The position numbers were made by a program, and so were the translations under genes. Under the pieces are notes generated by a model. That model was not told where the DNA came from. It ran no database searches and saw only the letters and a list, made by a program, of their open reading frames with translations. A DNA stretch of 38,214 nt from a virus: positions 1 through 38,214 of IMG/VR virus record IMGVR_UViG_3300035698_009224; one strand, written 5' to 3'. This document shows, piece by piece, positions 9,099 to 37,809 of this stretch. The stretch's first letter is position 1; each line of letters begins with the position of its first letter.

Positions 9099-9108
9099 GA
9101 GATTAATG

Positions 9109-14695: not shown

Positions 14696-14702
14696 AATAT
14701 TT

Positions 14703-14760
14703 ACCTCCAGACATAATTGTTTTTATAAATACTATTGTAAACAATATTTTGTCTGGAGGT
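14703..14760 (+). promoter_or_regulatory. RBS-hiding hairpin with a late-promoter consensus in its loop
   Basis: ACCTCCAGACA (14703-14713) pairs perfectly with TGTCTGGAGGT (14750-14760), and ATTGTTT (14716-14722) with AAACAAT (14739-14745). The 3' arm holds the GGAGG Shine-Dalgarno (14755-14759) of the endonuclease at 14766. The loop carries TATAAATACTATT (14724-14736), a full match to the T4 late-promoter consensus as I recall it. Read-through RNA would hide the RBS; RNA started from the loop would expose it. Confidence 0.7.
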
Positions 14761-14765
14761 ATTAA

Positions 14766-15920: not shown

Positions 15921-16395
15921 ATCAATAAAAAAGAAAAAGGTATATGATATAACTGTTGAAAATAAAGAACATTATATATTAGAAAATGATGTTGTTTCTC
16001 ATAATTCTGGCACATATTATTCTGGTGACATGATTGTATTTCTTTCAAAGTCTAAGATGAAAGATGGGAAGGAAGTTGTTGGAAATAATATTCGGTGTAC
16101 TTTAACAAAGGGTAGATTCACGAAAGAAAATAAGCAAGTTATTATTGGTCTTTCATATGATAAGGGGTTATTACGTTATCATGGACTTTTAACTCTTGCT
16201 GAAAAGTATGGTGTAATTAAGAAATTATCCACTAAATATAAATTCCCGCATATTGATGGGAAGGGTTCTTTTGAAAAACATATTTATGAAAATCCTGAAA
16301 AGTTTTTTACTAAAGAAATATTAGATAAAATTGATACATGTGCCGCGACAGAATTTTTATATGGTTCAGCATTAGAGGAAATTAATGAAGAATAA
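15889..16395 (+). CDS. uvsX-C: C-half of split intein fused to UvsX C-part
   Basis: Residues 1-39 are a C-intein: block F VYDITVENKEHYILEN and block G DVVSHN with the splice Asn39. Ser40 (codon 16006-16008) is the +1 nucleophile, opening the UvsX C-extein SGTYYSGDMIVFLSKS and continuing through RCTLTKGRFTKEN to the acidic C-terminus (129 residues). The ATG has AAGGAG at 15875-15883 and lies in the end of the endonuclease gene. It joins the N-part (13754-14695) in trans. Confidence 0.94.
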   Translation: MKEVQVLSIVKSIKKKKVYDITVENKEHYILENDVVSHNSGTYYSGDMIVFLSKSKMKDGKEVVGNNIRCTLTKGRFTKENKQVIIGLSYDKGLLRYHGLLTLAEKYGVIKKLSTKYKFPHIDGKGSFEKHIYENPEKFFTKEILDKIDTCAATEFLYGSALEEINEE

Positions 16396-20351: not shown

Positions 20352-20383
20352 CCAAACATCGTTGATTTTTAAAGAAATAAAAA

Positions 20384-21511
20384 ATGCCTAAATATAAAGT
20401 AAATTTTTCTGATTTATCACCTATTGATAAATTTAATAGAATATGTAAAAATAAATTTTTTGAAGATATTGATTGTAACTATTGGAGAAAAAATTATTTA
20501 GATATTAATGATACGGATATATTGATTAAAAATAAAAAATTTGTTTTGTCTATTTTATCAAAATTACCAAATCAACCTAATAAATCACAATTAATTAAAT
20601 TAGCCAGATTATATTTTTATTGTGATGAAGATTTTGTTGATTTATTTTTTAAAAAAATCGATAATACGTTAACCAAGGAAACATTTAAACTTAGATATGG
20701 TTTGATTAATGGTAAAAAATTATATGATAATTATATTATTAATTTAAAGAGCCGACCAAAAGCGAAAAATCATAACTCACCAATAATGATAAAATATTGG
20801 ATAGATAAAGGTTTTAATAAAACAGAAGCTAAAAATAAAATATCAATATTACAATCTCACCGGTGTAAAAAACGTAAAGATTATGTAATGAATAATAAAT
20901 TAAAATGGTGTATTAATTATTGGCTCAAAAGAGGATATACACTTAAAGAAGCAAAAATATTAATAAACCCATATATGTTGCAATGTAAGCAAGGATTAGA
21001 AGATTTTAAAAAAAGATATGGAGTTATTAAAGGAAAATTAAAATTTGACGAAATGATAGTCAAACGAAAAAATACTATTTTTGAAAGATATAATACACAT
21101 AATATTTTTACTTTATATCAAAAACAAGCGTCAAAGGAATCATTAAAAATATTTTTACCATTAATTCATTTAATTAAAAAAGAATATAATATTAAACAAA
21201 ATGATATTTGTATAGGAATTGATGGTAATAAAGAATTTATATTAGGTGGAAAATATTTTTATGATTTTGTTATTAAAAGTAAAAAAATAATAATCGAATT
21301 TAATGGTATTAATTGGCATCCTAAAAAATTAAATGATGAAAATTTTAATTGTCCTATATCTTTTATTGATAGTAATGAAAAATATAATTATGACAGGAAA
21401 AAAATAGAATATGCTGTTAATGAGGGATTTAAAGTTTTAGAAATATGGTCTGATTGTGAAAATAATTTTGATATTTGTGTTAATTTTTTAAAAGAGAATA
21501 ATGTTAAATAA
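20384..21511 (+). CDS. EDxHD (Vsr-like) homing endonuclease inside split gp41
   Basis: A 375-residue protein. The middle carries two modules related to those of the uvsX endonuclease (KYWIDKGFNKTEAKNKIS and NYWLKRGYTLKEAKILI). The C-terminus is the nuclease: YFYDFVIKSKKIIIEFNGIN, WHP, then YDRKKIEYAVNEGFKVLEIW, the Vsr-like arrangement. The N-terminal 120 residues are helical and not recognised. Sequence similarity to the uvsX endonuclease is moderate, so the two are old relatives rather than recent copies. It overlaps the gp41 C-part by 11 bases. Confidence 0.82.
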   Translation: MPKYKVNFSDLSPIDKFNRICKNKFFEDIDCNYWRKNYLDINDTDILIKNKKFVLSILSKLPNQPNKSQLIKLARLYFYCDEDFVDLFFKKIDNTLTKETFKLRYGLINGKKLYDNYIINLKSRPKAKNHNSPIMIKYWIDKGFNKTEAKNKISILQSHRCKKRKDYVMNNKLKWCINYWLKRGYTLKEAKILINPYMLQCKQGLEDFKKRYGVIKGKLKFDEMIVKRKNTIFERYNTHNIFTLYQKQASKESLKIFLPLIHLIKKEYNIKQNDICIGIDGNKEFILGGKYFYDFVIKSKKIIIEFNGINWHPKKLNDENFNCPISFIDSNEKYNYDRKKIEYAVNEGFKVLEIWSDCENNFDICVNFLKENNVK

Positions 21512-22061
21512 TGAATATTTTAAATATGCTGTTTATATGGTTGAAAATGAATTGCTTGATTGTAATGACCCATTTTTACTTGCGGAATTATTAGAAGATT
21601 TATATAATTATTTTGAAGAACGAAATAAAATATCAGATAATGAAATTTTCTATAATGATGAAATTATATCTATTACAGAAAATTGTAATGAAGAAACTAT
21701 TGATATTGTAGTTTCAGATGATAATTTATTTTATGCTAATGATATATTAACCAAAAATTCATTTGGATTACCTGCAACGGCAGATTTTATGGTTGCTTTA
21801 ATACAAACAGAAAATTTAGTAGCATTAGACCAGATATTAGTTAAACAATTAAAAAATCGTTATAGAGATAAATCAAAAGATAATAAATTTATTATAGGTA
21901 TGAAAACAAAATATATGAAATTATATGATGTTGAACCAAGTGCCCAAGGTTCTTTAGTTAATACAAATCAATTACCATCACAAATAGACGCTGGTGAAAA
22001 AGATTTTTATGCACAACAAAAACAAAAACAAAATGCAAAATTTGAGGGGTTTAAAATTTAG
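21501..22061 (+). CDS. 41-C: C-half of split intein fused to gp41 C-part
   Basis: Asn86 then Ser87 (codon 21759-21761) mark the splice site: TIDIVVSDDNLFYANDILTK, N, then the helicase C-extein SFGLPATADFMVALIQTENL (100 residues). Two oddities: the residue before Asn is Lys, not the usual His, and the intein part is 86 residues instead of about 40 because of an acidic, Tyr- and Glu-rich N-terminal extension (MLNNEYFKYAVYMVENELLD and on). The extension may help pair with the N-intein or be leftover of the intein middle. Confidence 0.92.
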   Translation: MLNNEYFKYAVYMVENELLDCNDPFLLAELLEDLYNYFEERNKISDNEIFYNDEIISITENCNEETIDIVVSDDNLFYANDILTKNSFGLPATADFMVALIQTENLVALDQILVKQLKNRYRDKSKDNKFIIGMKTKYMKLYDVEPSAQGSLVNTNQLPSQIDAGEKDFYAQQKQKQNAKFEGFKI

Positions 22062-22831: not shown

Positions 22832-23329
22832 GTGGCAAAATTAAAAGTAAGAATGAATGAAAAGAAACAAAACTTTGTTGATATAGTAAAGGCTAAATAT
22901 GGTCAAATAGAAATCATATCAAGGGAACAAATAAATGTTCTTTTGGGTGAAAATTCTGATATGGTTTGGCCTTCATGGTTAACAGCAAATAAAGGCTTGC
23001 GTGCTGGTCGAGGACAGTTTTATCTTCCATCTGATATTGGTGAAGTTTCTATTAGTAAACCTGAATTGAAAGTTGCTCCAGCGGAGGTTGTAGTTGAAGA
23101 AGATGAAGCTAAACCTAAAAAGAATTGGTGGGGTGATGGACCTACACCAAAAGCAAAATTTGTATTGCCGGTATCAAAAGAAGATACGGATATTTGTGAA
23201 TGCCCTAAATGTTCACAAGTAGGTTATATAAATTATATGGGTCATACTGTATGTAAAAATCATTGGGTTCGTCATTGTGATTCTAACAGTGAATATAATC
23301 TGAAAAAAGTATTTTGTATTTATGGATAA
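22832..23329 (+). CDS. Phage protein with possible DNA-binding N-terminus and zinc site (165 aa)
   Basis: The longer frame from ATG 22805 begins only 3 bp after the -10 box, before any likely transcript start, so GTG 22832 with GGAG at 22821-22824 is the start. The N-terminal 60 residues (FVDIVKAKYGQIEIISREQI, then WPSWLTANKGLRAGRGQFYL) resemble a winged-helix-like domain seen in other large phages. A linker follows, then CECPKCSQ and a later Cys/His group (VCKNHWVRHC) that could bind zinc. Function unknown. Confidence 0.65.
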   Translation: MAKLKVRMNEKKQNFVDIVKAKYGQIEIISREQINVLLGENSDMVWPSWLTANKGLRAGRGQFYLPSDIGEVSISKPELKVAPAEVVVEEDEAKPKKNWWGDGPTPKAKFVLPVSKEDTDICECPKCSQVGYINYMGHTVCKNHWVRHCDSNSEYNLKKVFCIYG

Positions 23330-23333
23330 GTTT

Positions 23334-23759
23334 ATGATTTGGAAAAAATATAGTTCAATAGATAATGTAAATAGTGATAAAATGATGATGTATATTAGGT
23401 TACATATATCACCTGATACACAATGGTGTGTTACTGAAAAAGCGCATGGCTGTCTTGATTCTGATACTAATATAATTACTAAAGAATTTGGAGAAGTTCC
23501 TATTTCTTATATTGTTGATAACCAAATAAAGTGTCATGTATTATCATACAATATAAAAACAAAAGAAAAGGAATGGGATGAAGTAATAAATTTTCAAAAT
23601 GTGGTAAATGATAATAAAGAATGGTATGTCATAGAATTAGAAGATGGAACACATATAACATTAACAGGTAATCATAAAATGTGGATTGATGATAAAGGAA
23701 AATATATATCTGTTGATGAATTAGTTAAAAATATCAATCAATTAATTTTAAAAAGATAA
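23334..23759 (+). CDS. rnl2-N: RNA ligase 2 N-part fused to N-half of a split intein
   Basis: The chosen start ATG 23334 gives MIWKKYSSIDN, matching the T4 Rnl2 start MFKKYSSLEN; ATG 23322 is in frame but has a poorer leader. Residues 1-39 are the ligase up to motif I, WCVTEKAHG, with the nucleophile Lys36. Cys40 (codon 23451-23453) opens the intein CLDSDTNIITKEFGEV with block B GTHITLTGNHKMWI. The frame ends after 102 intein residues. The intein therefore interrupts the ligase four residues after the catalytic lysine. The C-part is at 24583. Confidence 0.88.
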   Translation: MIWKKYSSIDNVNSDKMMMYIRLHISPDTQWCVTEKAHGCLDSDTNIITKEFGEVPISYIVDNQIKCHVLSYNIKTKEKEWDEVINFQNVVNDNKEWYVIELEDGTHITLTGNHKMWIDDKGKYISVDELVKNINQLILKR

Positions 23760-23774
23760 CTGAAAAGATAGTGT

Positions 23775-23816
23775 AATTTCTCTGTTTTATAAATAGATGT
23801 AAGAAATGGAGAAATT
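23775..23816 (+). promoter_or_regulatory. RBS-hiding hairpin with TATAAATA in its loop
   Basis: AATTTCTC (23775-23782) pairs with GAGAAATT (23809-23816), which ends directly at the endonuclease ATG (23817) and contains most of its GGAG ribosome-binding site (23808-23811). TATAAATA (23788-23795) is in the loop. Same logic as at 14703-14760 although the sequences are unrelated. Confidence 0.65.
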
Positions 23817-24626
23817 ATGCTAAATTTTAAAAAATGTAGATTTTGTGGTAAAAAATATGAAGTTAAAAACAAATATTCAATTTCTGGTCATTTAGCACGA
23901 TGTAAAGGTTTAAATGAATATAAAGAAGCTGTATTAACAAAAGTATATTTGAATAATGAATATAATAAAAATGAACGGTCAGCTTTAGAAATTGCTCAAG
24001 AACATGGATTTAATTCAGCAACAATAATAATAAATCTTTTGAAAAAATATAAAATAAGTAAGAGAAACATTTCTCAATCTTTATGTACGGATTTAACAAA
24101 AAAGAAAATTAAAAAAACAAATATTAAAAGATATGGTTATGAACATAATTTTTGTAAAAATAATCCATCAAGATTGAAATGGGAACAAAGATTATATGAT
24201 GAAGAAGGTATAATTAATGTTTATCAGCGAGAAGATGTTAAAAAAATAATAAAACAAAAATCATTAGAAACAAAATATAGACTTGGATTAGCTGTAAGAC
24301 CTGAATTAAAATCTAAATGGAAAAGATATAAAGAATGTGTATTTAATGAAACTAATAAAAATTATAAAAAATATAAACATCTTATTAATCCATTAAAGGT
24401 AAATAGAAAACGAAATAAATATCATCTTGACCATATTGTTAGTATTAGATATGGCTTTGATAATAATATACCGATAAATATTATGGCTCATACAGCTAAT
24501 TTACAAATGTTAAAAGAAAAGGAAAATATATCAAAAGGTATGAAATGTGGTTGTAGTATTGATGAATTATATAAAAGGGTAAATGAATATGAATTTTGTG
24601 AAAATAAAATCAATAAAAAAAATTAA
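23817..24626 (+). CDS. HNH homing endonuclease inside split RNA ligase 2
   Basis: A 269-residue protein. It starts with a zinc-finger-like CRFCGKKYEVKNKYSISGHL, ARC (Cys7, Cys10, His, Cys), then a helical part with ERSALEIAQEHGFNSATIII that looks like a helix-turn-helix. The catalytic HNH motif is C-terminal: KYHLDHIVSIRYGFDNNIPI, then ANLQMLKEKENISKG. It would cut intein-less ligase genes. It belongs to a different nuclease class from the Vsr-like enzymes in uvsX and gp41. It overlaps the ligase C-part by 44 bases. Confidence 0.86.
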   Translation: MLNFKKCRFCGKKYEVKNKYSISGHLARCKGLNEYKEAVLTKVYLNNEYNKNERSALEIAQEHGFNSATIIINLLKKYKISKRNISQSLCTDLTKKKIKKTNIKRYGYEHNFCKNNPSRLKWEQRLYDEEGIINVYQREDVKKIIKQKSLETKYRLGLAVRPELKSKWKRYKECVFNETNKNYKKYKHLINPLKVNRKRNKYHLDHIVSIRYGFDNNIPINIMAHTANLQMLKEKENISKGMKCGCSIDELYKRVNEYEFCENKINKKN

Positions 24627-25635
24627 AAATGATAGTAATTTGTTTGATATAGAAACTAAAAATAATCATAATTTCTTTGCAAATGATATTTTGGTTCATA
24701 ATTCTAATTATTCTATGTGGTGTGATGGTGTAGAATTTAAAACAGGTAAAAGGAGTTCCTTTATTAGACCTGAATCTAATTTTATGAACCATCAATATGT
24801 TGATGCTAAATACCGAGATAATATTTTTTCTATATTTGATAAGGTAAAAAATACTTATGCAAATGCAAAAGCAGGTAAAGTTGTTGAATATATTATTGTG
24901 AATGGTGAGTTACTTGGTGGAGCTTATGCTGGTGCAAAACCAAAAGACGTTCATGCTAAGAAAGTACAAAGTGGTATTTCTTATTGCCCAGATAATGAAT
25001 TTTATGCTTTTGATTTACAAGTAAAATTTAAAGATTCCGATGTAGCTGAATATATAGATTATGCAGTTGCAGTAGTATTTTTCTTTGTATTACCTCATGC
25101 AGAAATTCTTAAAATGGGTACTTTAGATGAATGTCTTGAATACTCTAATGAATTTCAGTCACGAATTTATAAAATGTTTACTGATGCAGATGGTAATTTT
25201 TTAGAAAAACTACCAGATAATATTTGTGAAGGTGTTGTAATTAAACCTATTACTCCAGAGTTTCTTGCGTCTGGAAGTAGAGTTATATTAAAGAATAAAA
25301 ATGATAAATGGTCTGAACAAAAACAGAAAACTAAGATTAAGAAAATGACTGTGTTATCTCCTCTTGCGTTAGAATTTGCTGAAACCGCTGAAACATATAT
25401 TAATGAAAATCGTTTGAGAAATGTTCTTTCGCATGAATGTGAAGAATGGACTTTTCGAGATTTTGGTAGAATCCAAGGTATGTTTAGCAAAGATATATGG
25501 GAAGAATTTATTAAAGATAATGATGTTTCTGGCCTTGATAAGAAAGAAGTTAAAGCATTATCTAAATATGTAGCTACGAAATGTTCCGAAGTGATACGGA
25601 AAAATATCACAAATATTATAGATAATTGTTTTTAG
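24583..25635 (+). CDS. rnl2-C: C-half of split intein fused to RNA ligase 2 C-part
   Basis: Residues 1-40 are the C-intein: NLFDIETKNNHNFFANDILV, then HN with splice Asn40. Ser41 (codon 24703-24705) opens the ligase SNYSMWCDGVEFKTGKRSSF. Nucleotidyltransferase motifs follow: motif III VNGELLGGAYAG, motif IV EGVVIKP, motif V VILKNKNDKWSE, then the Rnl2 C-terminal domain (310 extein residues). Spliced length would be about 349 (T4 Rnl2 334). The enzyme seals nicked RNA and would work with the kinase at 25863. AAAAGGG just upstream serves the ATG. Confidence 0.93.
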   Translation: MNMNFVKIKSIKKIKNDSNLFDIETKNNHNFFANDILVHNSNYSMWCDGVEFKTGKRSSFIRPESNFMNHQYVDAKYRDNIFSIFDKVKNTYANAKAGKVVEYIIVNGELLGGAYAGAKPKDVHAKKVQSGISYCPDNEFYAFDLQVKFKDSDVAEYIDYAVAVVFFFVLPHAEILKMGTLDECLEYSNEFQSRIYKMFTDADGNFLEKLPDNICEGVVIKPITPEFLASGSRVILKNKNDKWSEQKQKTKIKKMTVLSPLALEFAETAETYINENRLRNVLSHECEEWTFRDFGRIQGMFSKDIWEEFIKDNDVSGLDKKEVKALSKYVATKCSEVIRKNITNIIDNCF

Positions 25636-25862: not shown

Positions 25863-26783
25863 ATGAAGTTAGTTTTACTTAAAGGACTACCAGGCAGCGG
25901 AAAATCTACAGAGGCAAAACGCCTTGTTAATAGTGGGCAATATGTTCGCATTAATCGTGATACTGTTAGAGAAATGTTATTATGTCCTAATGATGATGGT
26001 AAAAAAGCATTTAATTACAAAGTAGAATCTATTGTTACTGATATTTGTTTAACGTCAGCAGATTTAATTATGTCTGATGAAAAATTTCATATTGTTGTTG
26101 ATGAATGTAATTTAAATCCTAAATATATTAATGTTTGGAAAGACCGTGCCACTAATTGGGGTTATACATTTGAAGTCCGCAAAATGAATGTATCTATTGA
26201 TGAATGTATCAAGCGTGATGTTAATAGAGTTCCTAATGTTGGTGCCAGAGTTATTAAGAATATGGCATTGCGGGCAGGCCTGCTTGATGGATATGATTAT
26301 CTTCCTAAAAAACCATTTGATTCTGTCGGTCCATCCAATCGTAAAATTGTGCTTTGTGATGTTGACGGCACATTAGCTGATGTAGAACATAGATTACATT
26401 TTGTGAATGGTAGTGAGAAAAAGAATTGGAAAAGTTTCTTTGAAAATATGTCAAAGGATACTTTACGTCAAAGCACTAAAGATATTGTTACAAAATATTA
26501 TGCTCTTGATTATTTTGTTGTTCTTCTTACAGCAAGACCACAAGAATATTTAATTGATACTGTTGATTGGTTAAATAAATATGATGTACCATTTAATAAT
26601 ATAATTATGAGAAAAAATAATGATTATCGCAGGGACGACATCGTTAAGGAAGAAATTCTTAATAAGTGGTTTACTAACAAAGAATTGATTGAATTTGTGA
26701 TTGATGATAGACCTCAAGTTATACGTATGTGGGAAAGAAATGGTCTTAAAGTGGTAGATGTGGGAAATGGTATAGATTTTTAA
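25863..26783 (+). CDS. pseT: Polynucleotide kinase / 3'-phosphatase
   Basis: A 306-residue homologue of T4 Pnk (301). The N-terminal kinase has P-loop GLPGSGKS (8-15), the catalytic INRDTVREML and an Arg lid. The C-terminal phosphatase is of the DxDxT acylphosphatase type: CDVDGTLADVEHRLHF (about 165-180), with LLTARP and IDDRPQV. It prepares RNA ends (5'-phosphate, 3'-OH) for ligation by the two RNA ligases in this window, as in T4 repair of cleaved tRNA. Confidence 0.94.
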   Translation: MKLVLLKGLPGSGKSTEAKRLVNSGQYVRINRDTVREMLLCPNDDGKKAFNYKVESIVTDICLTSADLIMSDEKFHIVVDECNLNPKYINVWKDRATNWGYTFEVRKMNVSIDECIKRDVNRVPNVGARVIKNMALRAGLLDGYDYLPKKPFDSVGPSNRKIVLCDVDGTLADVEHRLHFVNGSEKKNWKSFFENMSKDTLRQSTKDIVTKYYALDYFVVLLTARPQEYLIDTVDWLNKYDVPFNNIIMRKNNDYRRDDIVKEEILNKWFTNKELIEFVIDDRPQVIRMWERNGLKVVDVGNGIDF

Positions 26784-27684: not shown

Positions 27685-28845
27685 ATGATGAAAATACATA
27701 ACAACCAATGGTATCAATCAGATTCCAAAAAGCCTTATATTCATCCTGCGGTAGAAATGTCATTTGATGAATTTTATAATGGTTTGTTGGATTGTGTGGC
27801 TAAAGGTACAGTTAATATGGTGCTTAATGCTGATAATGACCGTGTATTATTTAAGTATAATCAAATAAAAATATGGGATGAAGGTTGGAATAAATATTCA
27901 ATCCTTGCAAGAGGTTTGATTTTATCGCTCAATGAAAAACGAGTTGTTGCAATGCCATATCCTAAATTTTTTAATTATGGTGAAGGTAGTTATGTATTAC
28001 CTGACGATTCAGAATTTACTGCTTTTGAAAAGCTTGATGGTTCATTAGGTATTTTATATAATTGGAAAGGTAAGTGGGAAGTTGCTACAGCTGGTTCATT
28101 TACTTCTGACCAAGCAATTTGGGCTACCAAATATATAAATAATACAGCAAATTTAAATGTATTGAATAGTTTTTATTATGATTGTACTATTTTAGGTGAA
28201 ATAATATATCCTGAAAATAAAATAGTTATTGATTATGATAATTTCGAAGGTTTTGTTGTGCATGGTGCTTATAATATTCTTGGTCATGAACTTCATTATC
28301 ATTATATGTTAGGTAATACATTTAATTGTGATGTTGTTAAAGCATATTCATATAAAGACCTTCCTAAAATAGTAGAACTTTGTAAATCATTGCCTCATAA
28401 TCAAGAGGGATTTGTTATACATTTCAATAATGGCTATAGAGTTAAGATTAAGGGTGACGAATATGTCCGTGTCCATCGTCTTATATCAAATGTTACACCT
28501 CTTAGGATATGGGAATCTATGCTGGCTGGTGATGATATTGACGCTCTTAAAAAAGAATTACCAGAGGAGTTTAGAGAAACTATTGATGAGTATGTTTCAA
28601 AAATATCTATACAGATAATGAAATTAACATCTAAAGTTGCATTGCACTCTATGGATATAGAGAAATTTACAGATAAGGAATTAGGTTTATGGATAAAGGA
28701 TCCATTTAACATTACACCAAAAAATATTAAAGATTTGCTTTTTATGGTACGTAAAAAGGATTTCTTTAGGAATATGTGTATTGGTGGTTCTGAATGTCGT
28801 AAAAAAATATTTAAAATGTTTAAACCTGTAGGTAATAAAATTTAA
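27685..28845 (+). CDS. rnlA: RNA ligase 1 (T4 RnlA type)
   Basis: A 386-residue homologue of T4 RNA ligase 1 (374). Visible: the upstream ILARGLILSLNEKRVVAMPY block, motif I FEKLDGSLG with nucleophile Lys116, motif III ILGEIIYP, motif IV EGFVIHF and motif V YRVKIKGDEYVRVHR, then the helical tRNA-binding C-terminal domain. It joins 5'-phosphate and 3'-OH RNA ends, classically at broken anticodon loops. ATG 27688 is an alternative start. Its stop overlaps a possible 15-codon ORF (28845-28892) that would couple to the next gene. Confidence 0.93.
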   Translation: MMKIHNNQWYQSDSKKPYIHPAVEMSFDEFYNGLLDCVAKGTVNMVLNADNDRVLFKYNQIKIWDEGWNKYSILARGLILSLNEKRVVAMPYPKFFNYGEGSYVLPDDSEFTAFEKLDGSLGILYNWKGKWEVATAGSFTSDQAIWATKYINNTANLNVLNSFYYDCTILGEIIYPENKIVIDYDNFEGFVVHGAYNILGHELHYHYMLGNTFNCDVVKAYSYKDLPKIVELCKSLPHNQEGFVIHFNNGYRVKIKGDEYVRVHRLISNVTPLRIWESMLAGDDIDALKKELPEEFRETIDEYVSKISIQIMKLTSKVALHSMDIEKFTDKELGLWIKDPFNITPKNIKDLLFMVRKKDFFRNMCIGGSECRKKIFKMFKPVGNKI

Positions 28846-28888: not shown

Positions 28889-29047
28889 ATGAGTGAATTG
28901 AGTGATATGAGTAAAGTTGTAATGTTTATTTGGGGTATTTGTGGAGTGGTAGCAATTGCATTAAATGCCCCGGAGGTTTTGGGTTTTTCATTATTTATTA
29001 CTCTTTGTGTGTTTCTTGGTAAAGTTTTAAATTGGGTTTTTAAATAG
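28889..29047 (+). CDS. Small membrane protein (52 aa)
   Basis: ATG 28889, stop TAG 29045-29047. Two hydrophobic stretches (VVMFIWGICGVVAIAL, about 10-25, and LGFSLFITLCVFLG, about 31-44) suggest a two-pass membrane peptide. A GGATGG motif lies 9-14 nt upstream. Its stop abuts the TATAAATA box of the tmRNA. No function assigned; small phage holins look like this but so do many others. Confidence 0.62.
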   Translation: MSELSDMSKVVMFIWGICGVVAIALNAPEVLGFSLFITLCVFLGKVLNWVFK

Positions 29048-29055
29048 TATAAATA
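29048..29055 (+). promoter_or_regulatory. T4-late-like promoter for the tmRNA
   Basis: TATAAATACTACA starts 19 bp before the mature 5' end of the tmRNA, the right distance for a -10 element with a short trimmed leader. Confidence 0.45.
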
Positions 29056-29066
29056 CTACATATTAA

Positions 29067-29427
29067 GGGGACGAAAGGGATTCGACTGGATAAAGAAGAT
29101 TATAAATGCATGTAGCGGATGGGTAGTTGGCCGCTTTAAAAATCTATCTAACGTCTTAATTGGCAACCGTAGTTTAGCAATGGCCGCGTAAGCGACCCAT
29201 TCTGATAAATCAGCCTGATGGTTTTGAAAGAATGTTAAAATTCAGGATAAGTTTTGTTAAACAATCCGTGATAACAATATCGAAAATTTTATTCGGATGT
29301 AGGTTGGTGTGAATATCAAGATGGTTACTATCAAAAGATATTACCGAATTATACCCAAAAGTAACTAAACATGTAGAATTTTAATTATAATTTATTACAG
29401 GACTCCGCTTCGATGCGGACGTCTCCA
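29067..29427 (+). ncRNA. ssrA: tmRNA (SsrA), phage-encoded
   Basis: A one-piece tmRNA of 361 nt. The tRNA-like ends pair: GGGGACG (29067-29073) with CGTCTCC (29420-29426), then discriminator A. The 5' part contains the family sequence GGGATTCGACTGG, and the T arm is TCCGC, TTCGAT, GCGGA (a 6-nt loop). The tag reading frame at 29162-29191 reads Gly-Asn-Arg-Ser-Leu-Ala-Met-Ala-Ala-stop, ending in Ala-Ala as proteolysis tags do. It would rescue stalled ribosomes and mark the products for degradation. A late-type box lies in front. Confidence 0.88.
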
Positions 29428-29448
29428 TTTTTTAAGAGGGTGGTATAG

Positions 29449-30369
29449 ATGGTAGCTAATACATATAGTGCTGATGTAAATGAGGTATTGTTAGGCTATT
29501 ATTGTTTGGGGAGTAAAGGTTCATGGAGTGGTTTTGTTAAAAGTACAGAAGCAAAACATCAATTGAATCTTAGAAAAGACCAAATTGGTGAAGATGAATA
29601 TTCAATTAGGTCTGAACAAGCAAAAGTTATGGCCATAGAATCTTTAAAGTGGGCCAAAGCAAATGGGTATAAGGGAAAAGTTAAACATGTTTGGTGGACA
29701 GCAAGGCCTGGTGTTTTAGCTAAAGCTGTTAAAAAAGATGTCGATTCAAGAAAAAATCCAACAGATACACTTTTACAATTTTCTGATAAACAATTTTTAG
29801 GTCTATCAGCTAAAAGTACAAAATCTAAAGGTGATATTGGATTTAAAAATCCTGGAATTGGAACAGTTGATAAAGCTTTGGGATTAAACCTTAAAGGAAT
29901 ATACACTAAAATAGAATCTGATATGGTAATTAAAATGAAGTTACCTATTTCCAAAAGTATCAGAAAAAACTTCCTTAGACAAAATAAAACCATACAAACA
30001 AAAACTATTGCAATTGGTATTGATGTTTTAAATAAAATAGCTACAGCTTTATTTAAAAAATTAAAAAGTATGACTAATGCACAATTGATTGATTATATTC
30101 TATCATATTGGATGGATGCAGAAAAAGTATATCCACCATATATAAAAATAACTGGTACTGGTAATAAAGCACCTTTTGGTGCCCATATTTTGGATCCATT
30201 AAAGAATAATAAAATTGCAATGATGCAAAAAGAAAAAATAAAGTTATCACGAATTGGAAATGAATCAATTGGTATAATGGCTGGTAATAAAAAAATATTC
30301 AAAATGCGTGTAAAATTTGAGAGTGAGAAAATGGCATCAAGTTTAAAATTTTCGGGGGATCCGTGGTAG
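29449..30369 (+). CDS. Unknown protein, possible PD-(D/E)xK nuclease (306 aa)
   Basis: The region around residues 80-125 reads KHVWWTARPGVLAKAV, KNPTDTLLQFSDKQFLGLSA, then KSTKSKGDIGFKNPG. An Asp in PTD followed 12-16 residues later by GLSAKS resembles the D...(D/E)xK core of restriction-type nucleases in which the second acidic residue has migrated. The C-terminal half (MTNAQLIDYILSYWMDAEKV, PFGAHILDPLKNNK) is not recognised. This is a weak inference. GAGGG (29436-29440) is the ribosome-binding site. Confidence 0.5.
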   Translation: MVANTYSADVNEVLLGYYCLGSKGSWSGFVKSTEAKHQLNLRKDQIGEDEYSIRSEQAKVMAIESLKWAKANGYKGKVKHVWWTARPGVLAKAVKKDVDSRKNPTDTLLQFSDKQFLGLSAKSTKSKGDIGFKNPGIGTVDKALGLNLKGIYTKIESDMVIKMKLPISKSIRKNFLRQNKTIQTKTIAIGIDVLNKIATALFKKLKSMTNAQLIDYILSYWMDAEKVYPPYIKITGTGNKAPFGAHILDPLKNNKIAMMQKEKIKLSRIGNESIGIMAGNKKIFKMRVKFESEKMASSLKFSGDPW

Positions 30370-30477: not shown

Positions 30478-31272
30478 ATGGATAAGTTGAGTTTTATTGT
30501 TCCTATCCGGGAACGTAATAAACATGCACAAGGCCTTATAGAAAATATAGCAAAGTATTTTAAACATAGTGATTATGAAATCATATTTGCAGAACAAATA
30601 GAAAAAGACATTCCACTCCGTCATGGCCAATTAAGAAATCTTGCATATAAAAAGGCAACTGGTAATATAATAGTTATTATGGATGTTGATGTGCGGTTTA
30701 TATATCCTATTGATATTGTAGCATTATATAATGAACATAAAGTTCCTCTTTTGCTTTTTGACCAATGTTATGATGTTATAGAAGATAAAAATGAGGAATG
30801 TGGATATAAAATTTCATATGCCCCTGTTTGGTATGGTCGACCAGTTAGGACCTGTCATTCACGATTAATGTGTTGTTCACCAAAAGAATTTATCCAATCT
30901 GGTGGATATTCTAATCTATGTTGGGGTTGGGGCTTTGAAGATACATTGTTTTATTACAGGTTGCAACCAGAACAGTTAATAAACACAATAGGGCATGTAG
31001 CTCATGGTGAACAGAGTGGTGATGTCAAACGAACGGAAGAAAATAGATATATCTTTCAAACAGATAGTCAAAGAGATAGACACAAAGACGGAGTAAAACA
31101 AACCATTGGTGATGATGTGAGTGATTATCCTAAATTTGGAAATTGTACTATCCATGCTTGGGCAACGCAAACAATAGTAAAGCATCACAAATTTTCTAAC
31201 ATAAGAGTACCAGATGATTTTGAATATATGGATGAATTGAAAAATAGAAAGGTACTTAATGAACAAAGTTAA
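30478..31272 (+). CDS. Glycosyltransferase, GT-A fold (galactosyltransferase-like)
   Basis: A 264-residue GT-A enzyme: SFIVPIRERNKHAQGLIENI at the N-terminus, metal-binding MDVDVRF (Asp69-x-Asp71), and the acceptor-side GGYSNLCWGWGFEDTLFYYR (about 146-165) typical of the C-terminal domain of beta-1,4-galactosyltransferases (Glyco_transf_7C). It opens a cluster of sugar- and methyl-transfer genes that continues to the window end. It overlaps the next gene by 14 bases. Confidence 0.82.
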   Translation: MDKLSFIVPIRERNKHAQGLIENIAKYFKHSDYEIIFAEQIEKDIPLRHGQLRNLAYKKATGNIIVIMDVDVRFIYPIDIVALYNEHKVPLLLFDQCYDVIEDKNEECGYKISYAPVWYGRPVRTCHSRLMCCSPKEFIQSGGYSNLCWGWGFEDTLFYYRLQPEQLINTIGHVAHGEQSGDVKRTEENRYIFQTDSQRDRHKDGVKQTIGDDVSDYPKFGNCTIHAWATQTIVKHHKFSNIRVPDDFEYMDELKNRKVLNEQS

Positions 31273-32107
31273 TTTTTTAGTTTTTAGTAAAGATAGAGCA
31301 ATGCAACTTAGATGTTTTTTGGAATCATTGGAAAAACATTCTATTGATGATATATATCTCCATGTTTTATATAAAACATCTAATGAAATAAATCAAAAAC
31401 ATTATGATGAATTAGAAAAATTATTTCCAAATGTTAGATTCATACCTGAATTTAATTTAATATTACAAACAAAACAAATTGTTGATACTTGTAAATATAT
31501 TGTATATTGTGTTGATGATTGTATTTTTACATATTCATTTTCAATTCAAAATATTATAAATTTATTAGAAGAAAATAAAGATGCATTAGGATTTTCTTTA
31601 CGTCTTGGTTTAAATACACAATATTGTTATATGAATGATTTTCGTCAAAGAGAATTGTCTGAATATGAAAATATTACTGATAAAATTATTAAATATGATT
31701 GGACAAAATATCTTGATAAACTCCAAGATTATGGATATCCTCTTGAGGTTTCTTCATCTTGTTATAGAAGCAAAGATGTTTCAAGAATGTTATATCCTAC
31801 TTTAAAGAATGTTCCAGCTATTGAAATAAACATGGATAAATTTAAAATGCAATATATTATTTCGCATCCATATTTATTATGTTATAATACATCGGTTGCT
31901 TTTTGTAACCCTATTAACAAAGTAGCAAATGATAGTGGAATACGCTTCGGAAAAAATAAATCATATTCATCATCAGAATTAACACAAAAATATGAAGATG
32001 GATATATTATAGATATAATTCCATTCGCTGGGGTTATATCTAATTCAGTTCACCAAGAAGTTGATTTTGATTTTATAAAAAGAAAGAGTGTTTATGGAAA
32101 TTGCTAA
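31259..32107 (+). CDS. Probable glycosyltransferase (282 aa)
   Basis: It begins MNKVNFLVFSKDRAMQLRCF, the opening of many GT-A-like phage and bacterial proteins, with an acidic YCVDDCIFTY (about 82-91) where the DxD lies in GT-A enzymes. The rest (LGFSLRLGLNTQYCYMNDF, CYRSKDVSRMLYP) is not diagnostic. Inferred from the fold-like pattern and the glycan cluster. It overlaps its downstream neighbour by 14 bases. Confidence 0.68.
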   Translation: MNKVNFLVFSKDRAMQLRCFLESLEKHSIDDIYLHVLYKTSNEINQKHYDELEKLFPNVRFIPEFNLILQTKQIVDTCKYIVYCVDDCIFTYSFSIQNIINLLEENKDALGFSLRLGLNTQYCYMNDFRQRELSEYENITDKIIKYDWTKYLDKLQDYGYPLEVSSSCYRSKDVSRMLYPTLKNVPAIEINMDKFKMQYIISHPYLLCYNTSVAFCNPINKVANDSGIRFGKNKSYSSSELTQKYEDGYIIDIIPFAGVISNSVHQEVDFDFIKRKSVYGNC

Positions 32108-32927
32108 AAATGAATTTGTAAAAGATTTAATTAACGGTGCGAAAAGGGTTCATTCTCAAACTATAGAAGATGGAATATTAGAAGGAATATTTAATAATAT
32201 AGGAACAACTAATAAATTTTTTATTGAAATTGGTGCATGGGATGGAATATATCTTTCAAATACAGCTAATCTTAGAATAAATAAAAATTGGAATGGATTA
32301 TTATTAGAAGGAAATAAAGAAAAGGCAGATAAATATGATTATGTAACTCATGCTATGGTAACTGCTGAAAATGTAAATGAATTATTTGAAAAAAATAATG
32401 TTCCAAAAGAATATGATTTATTATCAATTGATATTGATGGAAATGATTTTTGGGTTTGGAAAGCTATTGATGATAGTAGATTTAGAGCAAGAGTTGTTAT
32501 TATTGAATATAATGCCAGTTTCCATGATTCAAATAAATCTATGACTATAGTTTATGATCCAAATTATAGACGAAGTGTATATTATTTTGGAGCAACATTA
32601 CGAGCATTGCATAAATTAGGAAAAGAAAAAGGATATTCTCTAATTTTTAGAGTAAGTGACCAAAATTTAATTTTTGTTGATTCTAAATTACTTCACGATA
32701 AAGATAAAGATATAGATGTAATAAAATTTTTGAATAAAGATATGAAAGCAGATAAAGGTATTTTAGGTTTTCCTGATGGCATCGAAAATAAATATAATTA
32801 TGATGAGCAATTATTAAAAAATTGTTTTCCATTTGAACAGAAAATTTGGCATTGGAATTATTTTGCTGATACTAATATGGTGATAGATAAAGAGCAAGAA
32901 TTATGTAGACGATGGGTACAAATTTAA
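32094..32927 (+). CDS. SAM-dependent methyltransferase-like protein (FkbM-like)
   Basis: ATG 32094 is preferred over GTG 32088. The Rossmann motif is FFIEIGAWDGIYLSNTANL (about 41-59), then GLLLEGNKEKADKY for the adenosine-binding acidic loop, and YDLLSIDIDGNDFWVWKAI, the FkbM-type 'D-x-E-G-x-x' equivalent with Asp-Gly-Asn in place of Glu-Gly-x. The last 100 residues are family-specific and unknown. Likely O-methylates a sugar or related group. Confidence 0.75.
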   Translation: MEIAKNEFVKDLINGAKRVHSQTIEDGILEGIFNNIGTTNKFFIEIGAWDGIYLSNTANLRINKNWNGLLLEGNKEKADKYDYVTHAMVTAENVNELFEKNNVPKEYDLLSIDIDGNDFWVWKAIDDSRFRARVVIIEYNASFHDSNKSMTIVYDPNYRRSVYYFGATLRALHKLGKEKGYSLIFRVSDQNLIFVDSKLLHDKDKDIDVIKFLNKDMKADKGILGFPDGIENKYNYDEQLLKNCFPFEQKIWHWNYFADTNMVIDKEQELCRRWVQI

Positions 32928-32928
32928 A

Positions 32929-33474
32929 ATGCCAGCTAATATTAAAATTTTTAAAGAGTATAAAAAAGATATAAATGTTTTTGTTGAAACAGGTACTTAT
33001 GCTGGCGCCAGCTTAAACAATGCAATACGATGTGATTTTGATGTACTTTATAGTATTGAATATGATTTAGGCTTATATAAAAGAAACTTAGAAACATTTA
33101 AAAACTTTCCAAATATATACCTCCTACAAGGCAATAGTGGTGATAAGTTAAAAGAGGTGTTAGATGATGTTAATGAGAAAGCTTTGTTTTGGTTAGATGC
33201 TCATTATTGTGGTTTTGGTGATTTAACATCAAACCCTCAACCAATATTCTCTGAATTGAAATCTATAAAAGAACATCATATAAACACACATACCATATTG
33301 ATAGATGATATGCGATTATTTGATGGTAAAACAGAAGATTTTTTATGCATAACAAAAACATCAATTATAAAAAAATTATATGATATTAATCCGGATTATA
33401 AAATAGAATTTATTGATAGCCCAAATTTTAAAAATGATATTTTGGTAGCTGAAATTAAAGATAAGGATGAATAA
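32929..33474 (+). CDS. Methyltransferase-like Rossmann protein (181 aa)
   Basis: A short class I methyltransferase-like fold: NVFVETGTYAGASLNNAI (about 16-33) as the glycine-rich SAM loop, SIEYDLGLYKRNLE as the acidic loop, then LFWLDAHYCGFGDL and TILIDDMRLFDG. Proteins of this pattern accompany sugar-methylating clusters. Its last base is the first of the next ATG. Confidence 0.7.
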   Translation: MPANIKIFKEYKKDINVFVETGTYAGASLNNAIRCDFDVLYSIEYDLGLYKRNLETFKNFPNIYLLQGNSGDKLKEVLDDVNEKALFWLDAHYCGFGDLTSNPQPIFSELKSIKEHHINTHTILIDDMRLFDGKTEDFLCITKTSIIKKLYDINPDYKIEFIDSPNFKNDILVAEIKDKDE

Positions 33475-34175
33475 TGTTGAATAGTTTGGATAGATTAATA
33501 AGGCAAGGACTTTATAAAGAAGGTAATCCATTACGGTTGCATTTAGGATGTGGACAAACAAAGTTGCCTGGTTTTATAAACATAGATTATGCACAAGAGA
33601 ATCATAATGTTATGACTGTTGCCGCGGATTATATTTCGGATATTGGTGATTTATCGTTCCCTAATGATACTGTTGCAAGAGTTGAAAGCCATCATGTATT
33701 TGAACATTTTAAAAAATATGACGCTTTAGCTTTATTAGTAAATTGGACTTGCTGGTTAAAGGTGGGTGGGCAGTTAGTGATTGCTACACCTAATATTGAA
33801 GGCCTTGCGGAAACTATTGCATCTAAAGATGTTAATTATGAAGATAAGATAAAAGCAATTAGACATCTTGAAGGTGACCAATCAGATAAATGGGCATTTC
33901 ATATTGGACATTGGTTCCCTGAAAGATATTTAAAGACATTGGAGGCTTTAGGATATTATAAAGATAATATTACAATTAAAGCAACAAAAAGACATGGTGG
34001 TATATTATCTGATGTTTATGTTATTGCAATTAAACATAAACATATAGATAAAAATGATTTAATTGATTCAGCTTGTGAAATATTAAAATTGGGTATGATA
34101 GATGAATGTGAAAAACCTATGTATGATATATGGTGTAACTATTTAAGAAACAATTTTGAGGATGCAAATGATTGA
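33474..34175 (+). CDS. Class I SAM-dependent methyltransferase (233 aa)
   Basis: Motif I LRLHLGCGQTKLPGFINIDY (about 20-39) is the classical opening of Methyltransf_11-type enzymes acting on small molecules and sugars, followed by VESHHVFEHF (motif around 72-81) and LKVGGQLVIATPNIEG. The C-terminal region ends with a helical DSACEILKLGMIDECEKPMY tail. It overlaps the next gene by 8 bases. Confidence 0.82.
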   Translation: MLNSLDRLIRQGLYKEGNPLRLHLGCGQTKLPGFINIDYAQENHNVMTVAADYISDIGDLSFPNDTVARVESHHVFEHFKKYDALALLVNWTCWLKVGGQLVIATPNIEGLAETIASKDVNYEDKIKAIRHLEGDQSDKWAFHIGHWFPERYLKTLEALGYYKDNITIKATKRHGGILSDVYVIAIKHKHIDKNDLIDSACEILKLGMIDECEKPMYDIWCNYLRNNFEDAND

Positions 34176-35052
34176 AAACATTCCAACAATAGGATGTAAG
34201 ATTTGGGGTGGTAATTATACTGTCGAAAATGATAATGATTTGAGATATGGAAAAAATCTTAAATATTTTGAATATAATTGGAAAAATCCCGAACAGGAAA
34301 ATATTGTCGTGTTTAGTGACGCTTTAATTGAAGAAGCATTATTACCCAAATATAAAAATATTCCATACAAAATCGCATGGTTAATGGAATCACAAGCCGT
34401 ATTTAATGAATGGCCTAAATATACAAAAATGTATAAATGTTTAATGGATAATTTAGATTCATTTTATGCTGTTGCAACATCTAATAGAGAATTAGTTACT
34501 AAATATCCTGATAAGTTTGTATATGTTCCTTTTGGACAAACCAGAATACCAATAAATGATACTTATTTGTATAATAAACAAAAATTATGTTCATTGACAA
34601 GCGGAGTTATAAAATGGCAAGGACATAAAAGACGAGTAGAAATTTTTAATAAATATAAAAATTCTGATTTGATTGATTTTCTCGGCCGAGGATTTAATAA
34701 CCCATTTCCATTACATGTTGATGCATTTGGTAAATATATGTATCATATTACAATTCATAATTATGATGTGAATGGATATTTTGGTTGTCATTTATTAGAT
34801 GCCTTAGCATGTGGTACTGTCCCTATTGTTACTGGGTCAAAATGTTGGTCTGAATTTTTTGATATGGATGGTATGATAACATTTGAAAATGTTGATGAAT
34901 TGTATGATATTTTTAAAAAAATAGGAACAGATGATTATTATAATAGGTTACCAGCAATTAAAAATAATTTAAAGTTATTAGAAAATTATAGAACATCCGA
35001 AAATCATTTATGGAAAAATATATTATGTGAATTATATGAGAAGGTTAAATAA
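34168..35052 (+). CDS. GT10-like (fucosyltransferase-type) glycosyltransferase
   Basis: The start is set at ATG 34168, with GAGG (34158-34161) 6 nt before; in-frame ATG 34162 and TTG 34156 are worse placed. The C-terminal half contains HITIHNYDVNGYFGCHLLDA, LACGTVPIVTG, matching the donor-binding end of GT10 alpha-1,3-fucosyltransferases (F-E-N ... E-K-x-x-x-A-x-x-x-G-x-V-P-I). The N-terminal half has YKIAWLMESQAVFNEWPKY and YAVATSNRELV. Probably uses GDP-fucose or a relative. Confidence 0.75.
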   Translation: MIENIPTIGCKIWGGNYTVENDNDLRYGKNLKYFEYNWKNPEQENIVVFSDALIEEALLPKYKNIPYKIAWLMESQAVFNEWPKYTKMYKCLMDNLDSFYAVATSNRELVTKYPDKFVYVPFGQTRIPINDTYLYNKQKLCSLTSGVIKWQGHKRRVEIFNKYKNSDLIDFLGRGFNNPFPLHVDAFGKYMYHITIHNYDVNGYFGCHLLDALACGTVPIVTGSKCWSEFFDMDGMITFENVDELYDIFKKIGTDDYYNRLPAIKNNLKLLENYRTSENHLWKNILCELYEKVK

Positions 35053-35058
35053 TAAATT

Positions 35059-36312
35059 ATGCATAAAAATAAAATGATTTTTGTTATACCTGATATGAGT
35101 TGGTTGTTTGATTATAAATCTCAATTTAGTTTAGGTATTCTTTATTTATCTTTTATATTAAAACAAGAAGATTGGGATGTAGAAATATTTGATACTAATG
35201 AAAATGATATAAAAGATTTACCTCAGGCCGATGTTTATGCCTTTTCTGTTTTATATAATACTTATAATAGTGCTATAAATATAAGTAAGATTATACGAAA
35301 TATATATAAAGATGCTTATTTAATTGTTGGTGGTGTTTATCCAACAACAACTCCTGAAAAATTTATTAATCACTTTGATAGTGTATTTAAGGGTGAATCT
35401 GAAAATACTATTAAAGTTTTTTGTGATGATTATAATAATAAAAGTCCAGAAAAAATATACGAAGAATTTGGGATAGTTGATATTTCAAATATAATAGCAG
35501 ATAGAAGCATACTTGATGAAAGTTATGTTAGAACTGGTTCTATATTTCTTAATAATGTTTCATTTTGTGATGGTGGTTCAACTTCTGTGATGTTTTCAAG
35601 AGGGTGTCCTGGTTCTTGTACATTTTGTTGTAGCCCCTTTATGTATAAAAAGAGAGTTAGGTTTCGTTCTGTTGATTCTATAGTAAATGAAATAAAAGGT
35701 ATTATAGATATATATGGTATCCGGCAATTTAAAATTCAAGATGATACATTTACTTTGAATTTAAATTTTCTTAAATTGGTAACAAAAGAATTAAAAAAAC
35801 TTAATATATATTATAGATGTTTAACAAGAGCAGATAGAATAACAGATGATGTTATAAAATTATTATATGATTCTGGTTGTAGAGAAATAGCTGTTGGTGT
35901 TGAATGTGCTGATAATACCGTTTTAAAAGCTTTAAAAAAACACGAAACTGTTGAACAGATAAGCAATTCTATTAGTATTATAAAAAAATATCCAATAAAA
36001 ATTAGAAGTTTTTTTATTGTTGGTCTTCCATTTGATACAAAAGAAACAATGCAAAAAAATATAGATTTTATTGAAAATAATAAATTAGACCATGTAACTA
36101 CTTCTAATTTAATTCTTTTTCCTGGAACAGAATTATATGACCAAAAAGAAAAATATGGAATTACAGAAATAAAAGATAATACATGTATGAATGTAGATTC
36201 CAGTATTCCATTAAAACCCAATATTAAATGTAAACATATGACACAAAATGAACATATAGAAATTATGAAAATATTTTATGATTATTTAATTAAGAAGGGT
36301 TTTACTAAATGA
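35059..36312 (+). CDS. Radical SAM protein with B12-binding-like N-domain
   Basis: A 417-residue protein. The N-terminal 130 residues have a B12-binding-like Rossmann pattern (GILYLSFILKQEDWDVEIFD, VYAFSVLYNTYN, YLIVGGVYPTTTPE), but the D-x-H-x-x-G cobalamin motif is missing. The radical-SAM cluster is RGCPGSCTFCC (Cys183, Cys187, Cys190), followed by QDDTFTLN and the YRCLTRADRITDDV to GVECADNTVLKALKK barrel. It could methylate, cyclise or rearrange a sugar or other substrate. The last 122 bases before its tail recur exactly at 36947-37068. Confidence 0.85.
   Translation: MHKNKMIFVIPDMSWLFDYKSQFSLGILYLSFILKQEDWDVEIFDTNENDIKDLPQADVYAFSVLYNTYNSAINISKIIRNIYKDAYLIVGGVYPTTTPEKFINHFDSVFKGESENTIKVFCDDYNNKSPEKIYEEFGIVDISNIIADRSILDESYVRTGSIFLNNVSFCDGGSTSVMFSRGCPGSCTFCCSPFMYKKRVRFRSVDSIVNEIKGIIDIYGIRQFKIQDDTFTLNLNFLKLVTKELKKLNIYYRCLTRADRITDDVIKLLYDSGCREIAVGVECADNTVLKALKKHETVEQISNSISIIKKYPIKIRSFFIVGLPFDTKETMQKNIDFIENNKLDHVTTSNLILFPGTELYDQKEKYGITEIKDNTCMNVDSSIPLKPNIKCKHMTQNEHIEIMKIFYDYLIKKGFTK
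36172..36293 (+). repeat. 122-bp direct repeat, copy 1 (end of radical SAM gene)
   Basis: It is identical base for base to 36947-37068 (offset 775). Beyond 36293 the copies differ at scattered positions up to the stop codon. Confidence 0.9.
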
Positions 36313-36965
36313 TTAATTTATTTACAGATATTCCTGAATTTATTATACCAGATGATGCTATTGTGGTTGAATGTGGTTCTAATAGAGGAACAGAAACAAA
36401 TTTTATTTTAAAAAATATAAATGAAAATGGAAAATATTTTGCATTTGAGCCAGACCCAAGATGTATTAAAGTATTTAAAAAAGCTGTTAATGATGATAGA
36501 TGTATTTTATATGAAAAAGCTGTTGGTGATTTTGATGGAATTATTCAATTAAAACTTAGTAGTGGTTGTCCCACTAATAGGTGTGTTGGATATAATCATA
36601 TAGACGCATCAACTATTAAAGGTGTATCAAAATATCAGCCAATTTTACATCCATGGTTAAAATGGGAAAATATTATTGATGTACCTATTATAAAATTAGA
36701 TACGTGGTTTGATAGTGTTGATATAGAACATATTGATTTTATGTGGGCTCATGTGGAAGGTGCCCAAGAAGAATTAATAAAGGGTGGATTAAATACATTA
36801 TCAAAAACAGATTGGTTATATTTGGAATGTTTTGATGATAATATACAATACGATGAAGAACTTTGTACAACAGAGGTTTTAAAATTATTACCAAATTTTG
36901 AATTAGTAAAGCAATATTCATATGATGCATTATTTAAAAATAAAGGAAAGATAATACATGTATGA
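36309..36965 (+). CDS. FkbM-family methyltransferase (218 aa)
   Basis: Rossmann start AIVVECGSNRGTETNFIL (about 18-35), the acidic loop FAFEPDPRCIKVFKKAV, and the FkbM block IDFMWAHVEGAQEELIKGGL (about 138-157) with the Glu-Gly pair. Likely methylates a sugar hydroxyl. It lies between the two copies of the 122-bp repeat and its ATG overlaps the radical SAM stop (ATGA). Confidence 0.83.
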   Translation: MINLFTDIPEFIIPDDAIVVECGSNRGTETNFILKNINENGKYFAFEPDPRCIKVFKKAVNDDRCILYEKAVGDFDGIIQLKLSSGCPTNRCVGYNHIDASTIKGVSKYQPILHPWLKWENIIDVPIIKLDTWFDSVDIEHIDFMWAHVEGAQEELIKGGLNTLSKTDWLYLECFDDNIQYDEELCTTEVLKLLPNFELVKQYSYDALFKNKGKIIHV

Positions 36966-37068
36966 ATGTAGATTCCAGTATTCCATTAAAACCCAATATT
37001 AAATGTAAACATATGACACAAAATGAACATATAGAAATTATGAAAATATTTTATGATTATTTAATTAA
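36947..37068 (+). repeat. 122-bp direct repeat, copy 2
   Basis: The second copy of the radical SAM tail segment 36172-36293. Its first 19 bases overlap the end of the FkbM gene, which therefore ends within repeated DNA. Confidence 0.9.
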
Positions 37069-37087
37069 AAAGGGATTTATAAAATAA
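36962..37087 (+). pseudogene. Duplicated C-terminal fragment of the radical SAM gene (41 codons)
   Basis: It starts MNVDSSIPLKPNIKCKHMTQ and continues to YLIKKGFIK, the same as the last 41 residues of the radical SAM protein except Thr to Ile near the end. It has an ATG and a stop that overlaps the next gene's ATG (TAATG), so it may be translated, but it has no independent domain. It is a scar of a duplication or recombination event. Confidence 0.8.
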
Positions 37088-37809
37088 TGTCAATTAATAC
37101 AGATGAAATAAAAAATTCTGGTGAATTGGAACTTATAAAAAAAGTAATATTTAATAGTGATGTTGTTTTTGATATAGGTGCTAATAAGGGAAATTGGATT
37201 GGTTCCGTTTTGCAAGAAAAATCAAACATTAAATTTTATGCTTTTGAACCGATACCAAAGGTTTATGAAACTTTAAAAAATAATATTAATGAAAATGGTA
37301 AATTTTATAATATTGCCATATCAAATTCTAATGGTGTAAAAACATTTCAATGTTATGGTGATGATAGTAATATATCTATGATGAGCGGATTTTTTAATAG
37401 ATTGACTTGGGAAAAACAAACTGGTGCAATAGCAACACCTATTGAAGTTGAAACAAGAACTCTTGATTCATTTTGTAATGAAAAAAATATTAATCATATT
37501 GATTTTATGAAAATTGATACCGAAGGTTCAGAATATGATGTATTACTTGGTGCAAGTAATTTGCTTAATAGAGGTGTTATAAAATTAATACAATTTGAAT
37601 ATGGTGGGTGTTATCCCGATGCTGGGACATATTTAAAAGATATATATGAAATGTTATCTAATAATGGATATATATTGTTTAGAATTATTCCAAGGGGTAT
37701 ACAACATATTGATAAATGGCGTGATGAAATGGAAAATTATGTAATGTGTAATTATTTTGCTGTTCAAAAAAATTATATGAAAACCTTATTTAATATATAT
37801 GGAGTTTAA
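37087..37809 (+). CDS. FkbM-family methyltransferase (240 aa)
   Basis: A second FkbM enzyme: VVFDIGANKGNWIGSVLQEK (about 26-45), FYAFEPIPKVYETLKNNI, and the diagnostic TRTLDSFCNEKNINHIDFMK, IDTEGSEYDVLLGA (about 124-157). It is only distantly similar to the FkbM gene at 36309, so it is not a simple tandem copy. Its stop overlaps the next ATG. Confidence 0.88.
   Translation: MSINTDEIKNSGELELIKKVIFNSDVVFDIGANKGNWIGSVLQEKSNIKFYAFEPIPKVYETLKNNINENGKFYNIAISNSNGVKTFQCYGDDSNISMMSGFFNRLTWEKQTGAIATPIEVETRTLDSFCNEKNINHIDFMKIDTEGSEYDVLLGASNLLNRGVIKLIQFEYGGCYPDAGTYLKDIYEMLSNNGYILFRIIPRGIQHIDKWRDEMENYVMCNYFAVQKNYMKTLFNIYGV

Follow-up and report, generated by a model that had tools for sequence, protein, structure and literature searches.

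A minority of phages has been described as carrying genes for tmRNA. One survey counts them in 402 of 18,146 phage genomes, or 2.3% (PMC9004378), and a second source lists Bacillus phage G and the mycobacteriophages Bxz1, Cali and Wildcat, among others (PMC4131195). The nearest described systems are the T4-like marine phage Melnitz and the Pelagibacter phage Mosig, in which, according to PMC9004378, the tmRNA is, as here, carried by a phage with T4-type genes and with no integrase involved. Our motif scan of viral contigs, which may in part be prophage or host DNA, yielded at least 119 tmRNA-like stretches, and among 200 candidate viral loci ARAGORN made 41 one-piece and 47 permuted calls, including the one described here. 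The statement in the initial annotation of this DNA that phage tmRNAs are "rare" was thus too strong. The gene reported here, which resides on a 38,214-base viral contig (the whole stretch analysed, referred to as the window), is a good new example, a one-piece tmRNA whose tag is apparently host-style, from a T4-like lineage that is uncultivated.

ARAGORN called the tmRNA with ends identical to those proposed in the initial annotation, and the Rfam model RF00023 matched over its full length (1-374) at positions 29067-29430 with 91.3 bits and an E value of 2e-34, far above the gathering cut-off of 47. The closed tRNA-like ends and the conserved 5' sequence noted earlier were also found, the former as a 7-bp acceptor stem with the alanine signal G3.U70 and the latter as GGGATTCGACTGG, read directly in the gene. 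No CCA is encoded at the 3' end, where the stem is followed by a single A; the two tRNAs called by ARAGORN in the window likewise have no encoded CCA. The first helix of PK1 was also drawn by the computed fold, and the PK2-PK4 helices are those drawn by the Rfam alignment only, the candidate stems in the fold being weak. The G+C content of the gene (36.6%) lies above that of the window (28.0%), as expected if RNA structure is kept. A permuted, two-piece tmRNA was ruled out by the linear order of the parts in both ARAGORN and Rfam. We conclude that this is an intact phage-encoded tmRNA, with PK1, resume codon, tag frame and stop codon in H5 all present (Table 1). Its six-base T loop was dropped as an oddity, since the form is common in tmRNAs: a pattern scan found C-TTCGAT-G in 80 viral stretches, with five T-stem pairs in 78, four in one and two in one.

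Table 1. Features of the tmRNA locus, with tag-less tmRNA-like RNAs of other phages (positions refer to the window unless another record is named)
Feature	Position	Strand	Basis or context
RNA ligase 2-type gene, C-terminal piece	24583..25635	+	context, 5' of tmRNA
Polynucleotide kinase/phosphatase gene	25863..26783	+	context, 5' of tmRNA
T4-type RNA ligase 1 gene	27685..28845	+	context, upstream neighbour
Small ORF before tmRNA	28889-29047		sequence
TATAAATA, T4-type late-promoter consensus, putative	29048..29055	+	motif match and placement
One-piece tmRNA (ssrA) gene	29067..29427	+	ARAGORN and Rfam RF00023
Acceptor stem 5' strand GGGGACG (G3 of G3.U70)	29067..29073	+	sequence, Rfam alignment
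PK1: AGCGG (29114-29118)/CCGCT (29131-29135); GGTAG (29122-29126)/CTATC (29144-29148)	29114..29148	+	pairing by eye
Tag frame GNRSLAMAA and stop UAA	29162..29191	+	Rfam alignment, sequence, motif counts, bacterial parallels
Helix H5 GGCCGC-GUAA-GCGACC, stop codon in loop, one mismatch	29182..29197	+	Rfam alignment, sequence
T arm TCCGC-TTCGAT-GCGGA, six-base loop	29404..29419	+	Rfam alignment, sequence
Acceptor stem 3' strand CGTCTCC and discriminator A	29420..29427	+	sequence, Rfam alignment
Downstream gene, no assigned function	29449..30369	+	22 bases after tmRNA
Tag-less RNA, L211	6320-6449		
Tag-less RNA, L221	480-608		
Tag-less RNA, L259	2583-2662		
Tag-less RNA, L264	8828-8938		
Tag-less RNA, Streptomyces phage BRock NC_048650	97140-97220		

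The tag frame reads GGC AAC CGT AGT TTA GCA ATG GCC GCG TAA. ARAGORN proposed a different, 20-residue tag, GRFKNLSNVLIGNRSLAMAA, starting at 29129. We rejected it because its first codons would fall inside PK1 (29114-29148), and because both the Rfam alignment, which sets UAAUU-GGC of the window against the consensus UAAuU-GCA, and the bacterial relatives put the resume codon at 29162. The window has a single copy of the motif formed by resume site and tag, and none of 100 shuffles has one. In a scan of the genome collection with a gapped pattern (resume site and tag end, separated by 0-18 free bases), nine genomes matched, six labelled Saprospiraceae and three Planctomycetota or subgroups thereof, with a match length of 35 bases in all nine, equal to that of the window. 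Every one of these loci matched the Rfam model, and in eight ARAGORN called a tmRNA whose tag began at the same GGC. GNRQLAMAA, one residue off the phage tag, is encoded by three of the nine; it was seen in Saprospiraceae, and GNYQLAMAA in Planctomycetota, with resume codons that align with that of the window. The frame read in the initial annotation, GNRSLAMAA, is thus better supported by sequence comparison than that of ARAGORN, and it holds in distant phage tmRNAs and in bacteria, the relatives open to comparison. An automatic tag call can evidently err where a resume-like motif recurs inside PK1.

Judged by its one-residue neighbour and the shared resume codon in bacterial tmRNAs, GNRSLAMAA is an ordinary bacterial tag form. 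In the order sampled around one matched genome, 129 of 149 genomes held a tmRNA at an E value of 1e-20 or better; for 30 genomes fetched from this order, ARAGORN made 28 calls, 26 of them with nine-residue tags and 14 with an AMAA ending. The majority of tags in the sampled Planctomycetota class begin with Ala. With a stricter tag pattern, 2 of 100 genomes sampled from the family Saprospiraceae matched, and no genome of the collection matched the exact pattern of the tmRNA 5' end. A literature text search for the exact string GNRSLAMAA also returned no match, which carries little weight. The tag form points to a host among the Saprospiraceae or Planctomycetota. The ribosome-binding sites pull against Bacteroidota: a Shine-Dalgarno-like motif precedes 28 of the 39 gene starts tested, against a background of 18.5%, and usage that high is ill-suited to a typical Bacteroidota host.

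On its predicted genes the phage is T4-like, since the window holds DNA polymerase pieces, one of them 48% identical to cyanophage S-SM2, together with a UvsX-like recombinase and a DnaB-like helicase. Several of these genes are interrupted. A homing endonuclease (phrog_314) separates the two pieces of the DNA polymerase (7592-11288), and an ORF splits each of three other genes, those for the UvsX-like recombinase (13754-16395), the DnaB-like helicase (18945-22061) and RNA ligase 2 (23322-25635). The splitting ORFs of the recombinase and the helicase are homing-endonuclease-like (phrog_22677), and intein-like matches stand at the break points of all three genes, an arrangement that we take to resemble fractured genes with split inteins. 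Also in the window are two tRNA-like genes (5434-5541 and 3690-3764) which have an Rfam match, no ARAGORN call and a common odd anticodon loop, AAAACATA; in the former, AAAA and CATA are separated by an inserted hairpin of 34 bases. The block 3' of the tmRNA region (30478-37809) carries galactosyltransferase-like, FkbM-type methyltransferase and B12-binding radical SAM genes.

The gene immediately downstream of the tmRNA, with which it is possibly co-transcribed, had no PHROG and no NCBIfam match, and its relatives in viral contigs adjoin UvsX and helicase genes. Ninety such relatives were found, of which 80 were kept, and 30 of these 80 records were searched for tmRNA: one exceeded the cut-off and five reached an E value of 1e-3 or better, ARAGORN seeing permuted tmRNAs and tRNA-Ala genes among those five. 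Across these 30 records, the tmRNA locus is not conserved. RNA ligase 1, used as a query against viral contigs, yielded no confirmed relative, and a DNA search of phage records gave three short local matches only, none at megablast level. To place the tmRNA itself, we built a FastTree tree of 111 tmRNAs (that of the window, the hand-cut RNAs of the viral contigs L201 and L202, and otherwise one-piece ARAGORN calls), from which phage RNAs outside 281-459 nt were left out. The RNA of the window grouped with L212 and L213 and then with L141, L145 and L106, at local supports of 0.82 and 0.80, the clade that follows having 0.91; since identities to it within the tree stay below 47%, this tree is a rough guide. 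Because the nearest RNAs in it are phage tmRNAs, it weakly favours a phage-borne lineage over a recent pick-up from a host.

Upstream of the tmRNA lie genes of RNA repair. We counted such genes in 28 tmRNA-bearing viral records, which were picked by hand and not drawn at random: RNA ligase 1 exceeded the cut-off in 4 and the kinase-phosphatase in 3, the window contributing to both counts. In the two other records with both genes (G034 and G035, with the same tag), kinase, ligase and tmRNA follow one another as in the window within a few kilobases, and in a further one (G041) the ligase and the tmRNA are about 24 kb apart. Conversely, a tmRNA exceeded the cut-off in 3 of 12 named phage records holding RNA ligase 1 or a related polymerase. 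The link between tmRNA and RNA-repair genes is suggestive at best. A tentative and rather doubtful reading is that this T4-like phage has a true late tmRNA gene set among genes of RNA repair, behind those for RNA ligase 2, polynucleotide kinase and RNA ligase 1, and with a tag that copies that of the host; if true, the phage would both mend cut RNAs and rescue ribosomes stalled on those that cannot be mended.

The box that the initial annotation had noticed in front of the gene is TATAAATA, which ends 11 bases 5' of the tmRNA and would set the start of transcription at about 29061. PMC5587285 quotes this octamer as the T4 late consensus, and the late motif is given as TATAAAT in PMC9004378. 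Counted on both strands, the octamer shows no overall excess in the window (21 observed, 17.3 expected). On the plus strand, however, 7 of the 15 copies stand 10-110 nt 5' of a gene start, a zone comprising 12.8% of positions; the 56 permutations of the octamer have on average 2.4 copies in this zone, and no other one equals the 7 of TATAAATA. One of the seven is the tmRNA's own, and three more precede the endonuclease-like ORFs that interrupt the UvsX, helicase and RNA ligase 2 genes. Given this concentration upstream of genes and the copy just 5' of the tmRNA, it may reasonably be inferred that the RNA is transcribed late from TATAAATA. Among the genes of the window we identified no late sigma factor. 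Elsewhere, the octamer stands 36 nt before the tmRNA in L201 and L202, a near-identical pair that counts as one case, and it was found within 80 nt upstream of 0 of 40 other one-piece tmRNAs called by ARAGORN in viral contigs; late transcription is thus not a rule among phage tmRNAs. Of the late-infection role suggested in the initial annotation, it is the late timing that gains a plausible T4-type late promoter.

We consider it probable, at roughly 75%, that the gene is an intact ssrA of a T4-like phage, made late and performing trans-translation with host partners and a host-style tag. The gene has the structural parts that an RNA needs to be charged with alanine, to resume translation, to tag the product and to terminate. 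The RNA would be made late from the upstream octamer, trimmed by host RNases, and provided with CCA and charged with alanine by host enzymes, the last two steps being suggested by G3.U70 and the lack of an encoded CCA. Together with host SmpB and EF-Tu, the charged tmRNA would enter ribosomes stalled on broken mRNA; these would resume at GGC, add (A)GNRSLAMAA and stop at the UAA in H5, whereupon the ribosome would be released and the product would bear a host-style degradation tag. The benefit to the phage may be that ribosome rescue is kept going once host transcription is over and RNA is being cut. No smpB match was obtained in any of the 23 tmRNA-bearing records searched, the window among them, so this partner would come from the host or from parts of the phage genome outside the window.

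Other uses of such a gene appear improbable to differing degrees. It might be a passenger, acquired by the phage and no longer under selection, as the single tmRNA over the cut-off among the 30 downstream-gene records could suggest. The minimum-free-energy fold, no better than that of shuffles (z -0.65), agrees with such a loss, although the program cannot represent tmRNA pseudoknots. Every defining part of the gene is nevertheless intact, and its nearest relatives in the rough tree are phage tmRNAs and not a recent bacterial donor, which makes this explanation unlikely. A decoy function, in which the phage RNA draws SmpB or EF-Tu off the host tmRNA and thereby weakens quality control in the host instead of freeing ribosomes, has been discussed for the tRNA-like-domain-only RNA of mycobacteriophage DS6A, a kind of molecule described in PMC4131195 as strongly inhibiting tmRNA, and tag-less short forms also occur in other phages. 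But the PK1, full tag frame and stop codon kept here would be needless for a decoy, and we regard this function as very unlikely.

Slimmer still is the chance that the phage replaces the host tag in order to spare tagged proteins or to route them to another protease. The initial annotation had raised such a change of proteolysis; this receives no support from a tag one residue away from a bacterial one carried by three of the nine matched genomes, with an ending shared by half of the 28 tags called in the sampled order. Trans-translation with a host-style tag thus remains our preferred reading.

Among the systems compared, the closest in tag are the tmRNAs of Saprospiraceae and Planctomycetota metagenome-assembled genomes (L312-L320), which share the resume motif and a nine-residue tag such as GNRQLAMAA; they differ in being bacterial chromosomal genes, and their whole-gene identity to the phage RNA is about 45% at most. 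The nearest RNAs in the tree, from the IMG/VR contigs L212 and L213, also have nine-residue tags (GETQLALAA and GTTQLALAA), but they have no TATAAATA within 80 nt upstream and no RNA ligase 1 match in their records. Several phages carry short tag-less tmRNA-like RNAs of about 77-130 nt that consist of the tRNA-like part only (Table 1; Rfam 44.9-64.5 bits, that of L211 falling under the cut-off of 47), and these resemble in make-up the DS6A form described in PMC4131195. In another contig (L165), a tRNA-rich region contains both a phage tmRNA and a GOLLD RNA (159.4 bits; 9666-10138). Phages G, Bxz1, Cali and Wildcat possess a complete one-piece tmRNA like that of the window; they belong to other phage groups and are likened here by their description in PMC4131195. 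Melnitz, like the phage studied here, is T4-like, but its tmRNA is two-piece (permuted) and is reported in PMC9004378 to lie 3' of an early promoter and to occur with a glutamine riboswitch, whereas that of the window is one-piece and follows a late-type element. For Melnitz early expression has been proposed, whereas the likely timing here is the opposite, late, so that the purpose of tmRNA in phages can be framed as two testable alternatives.
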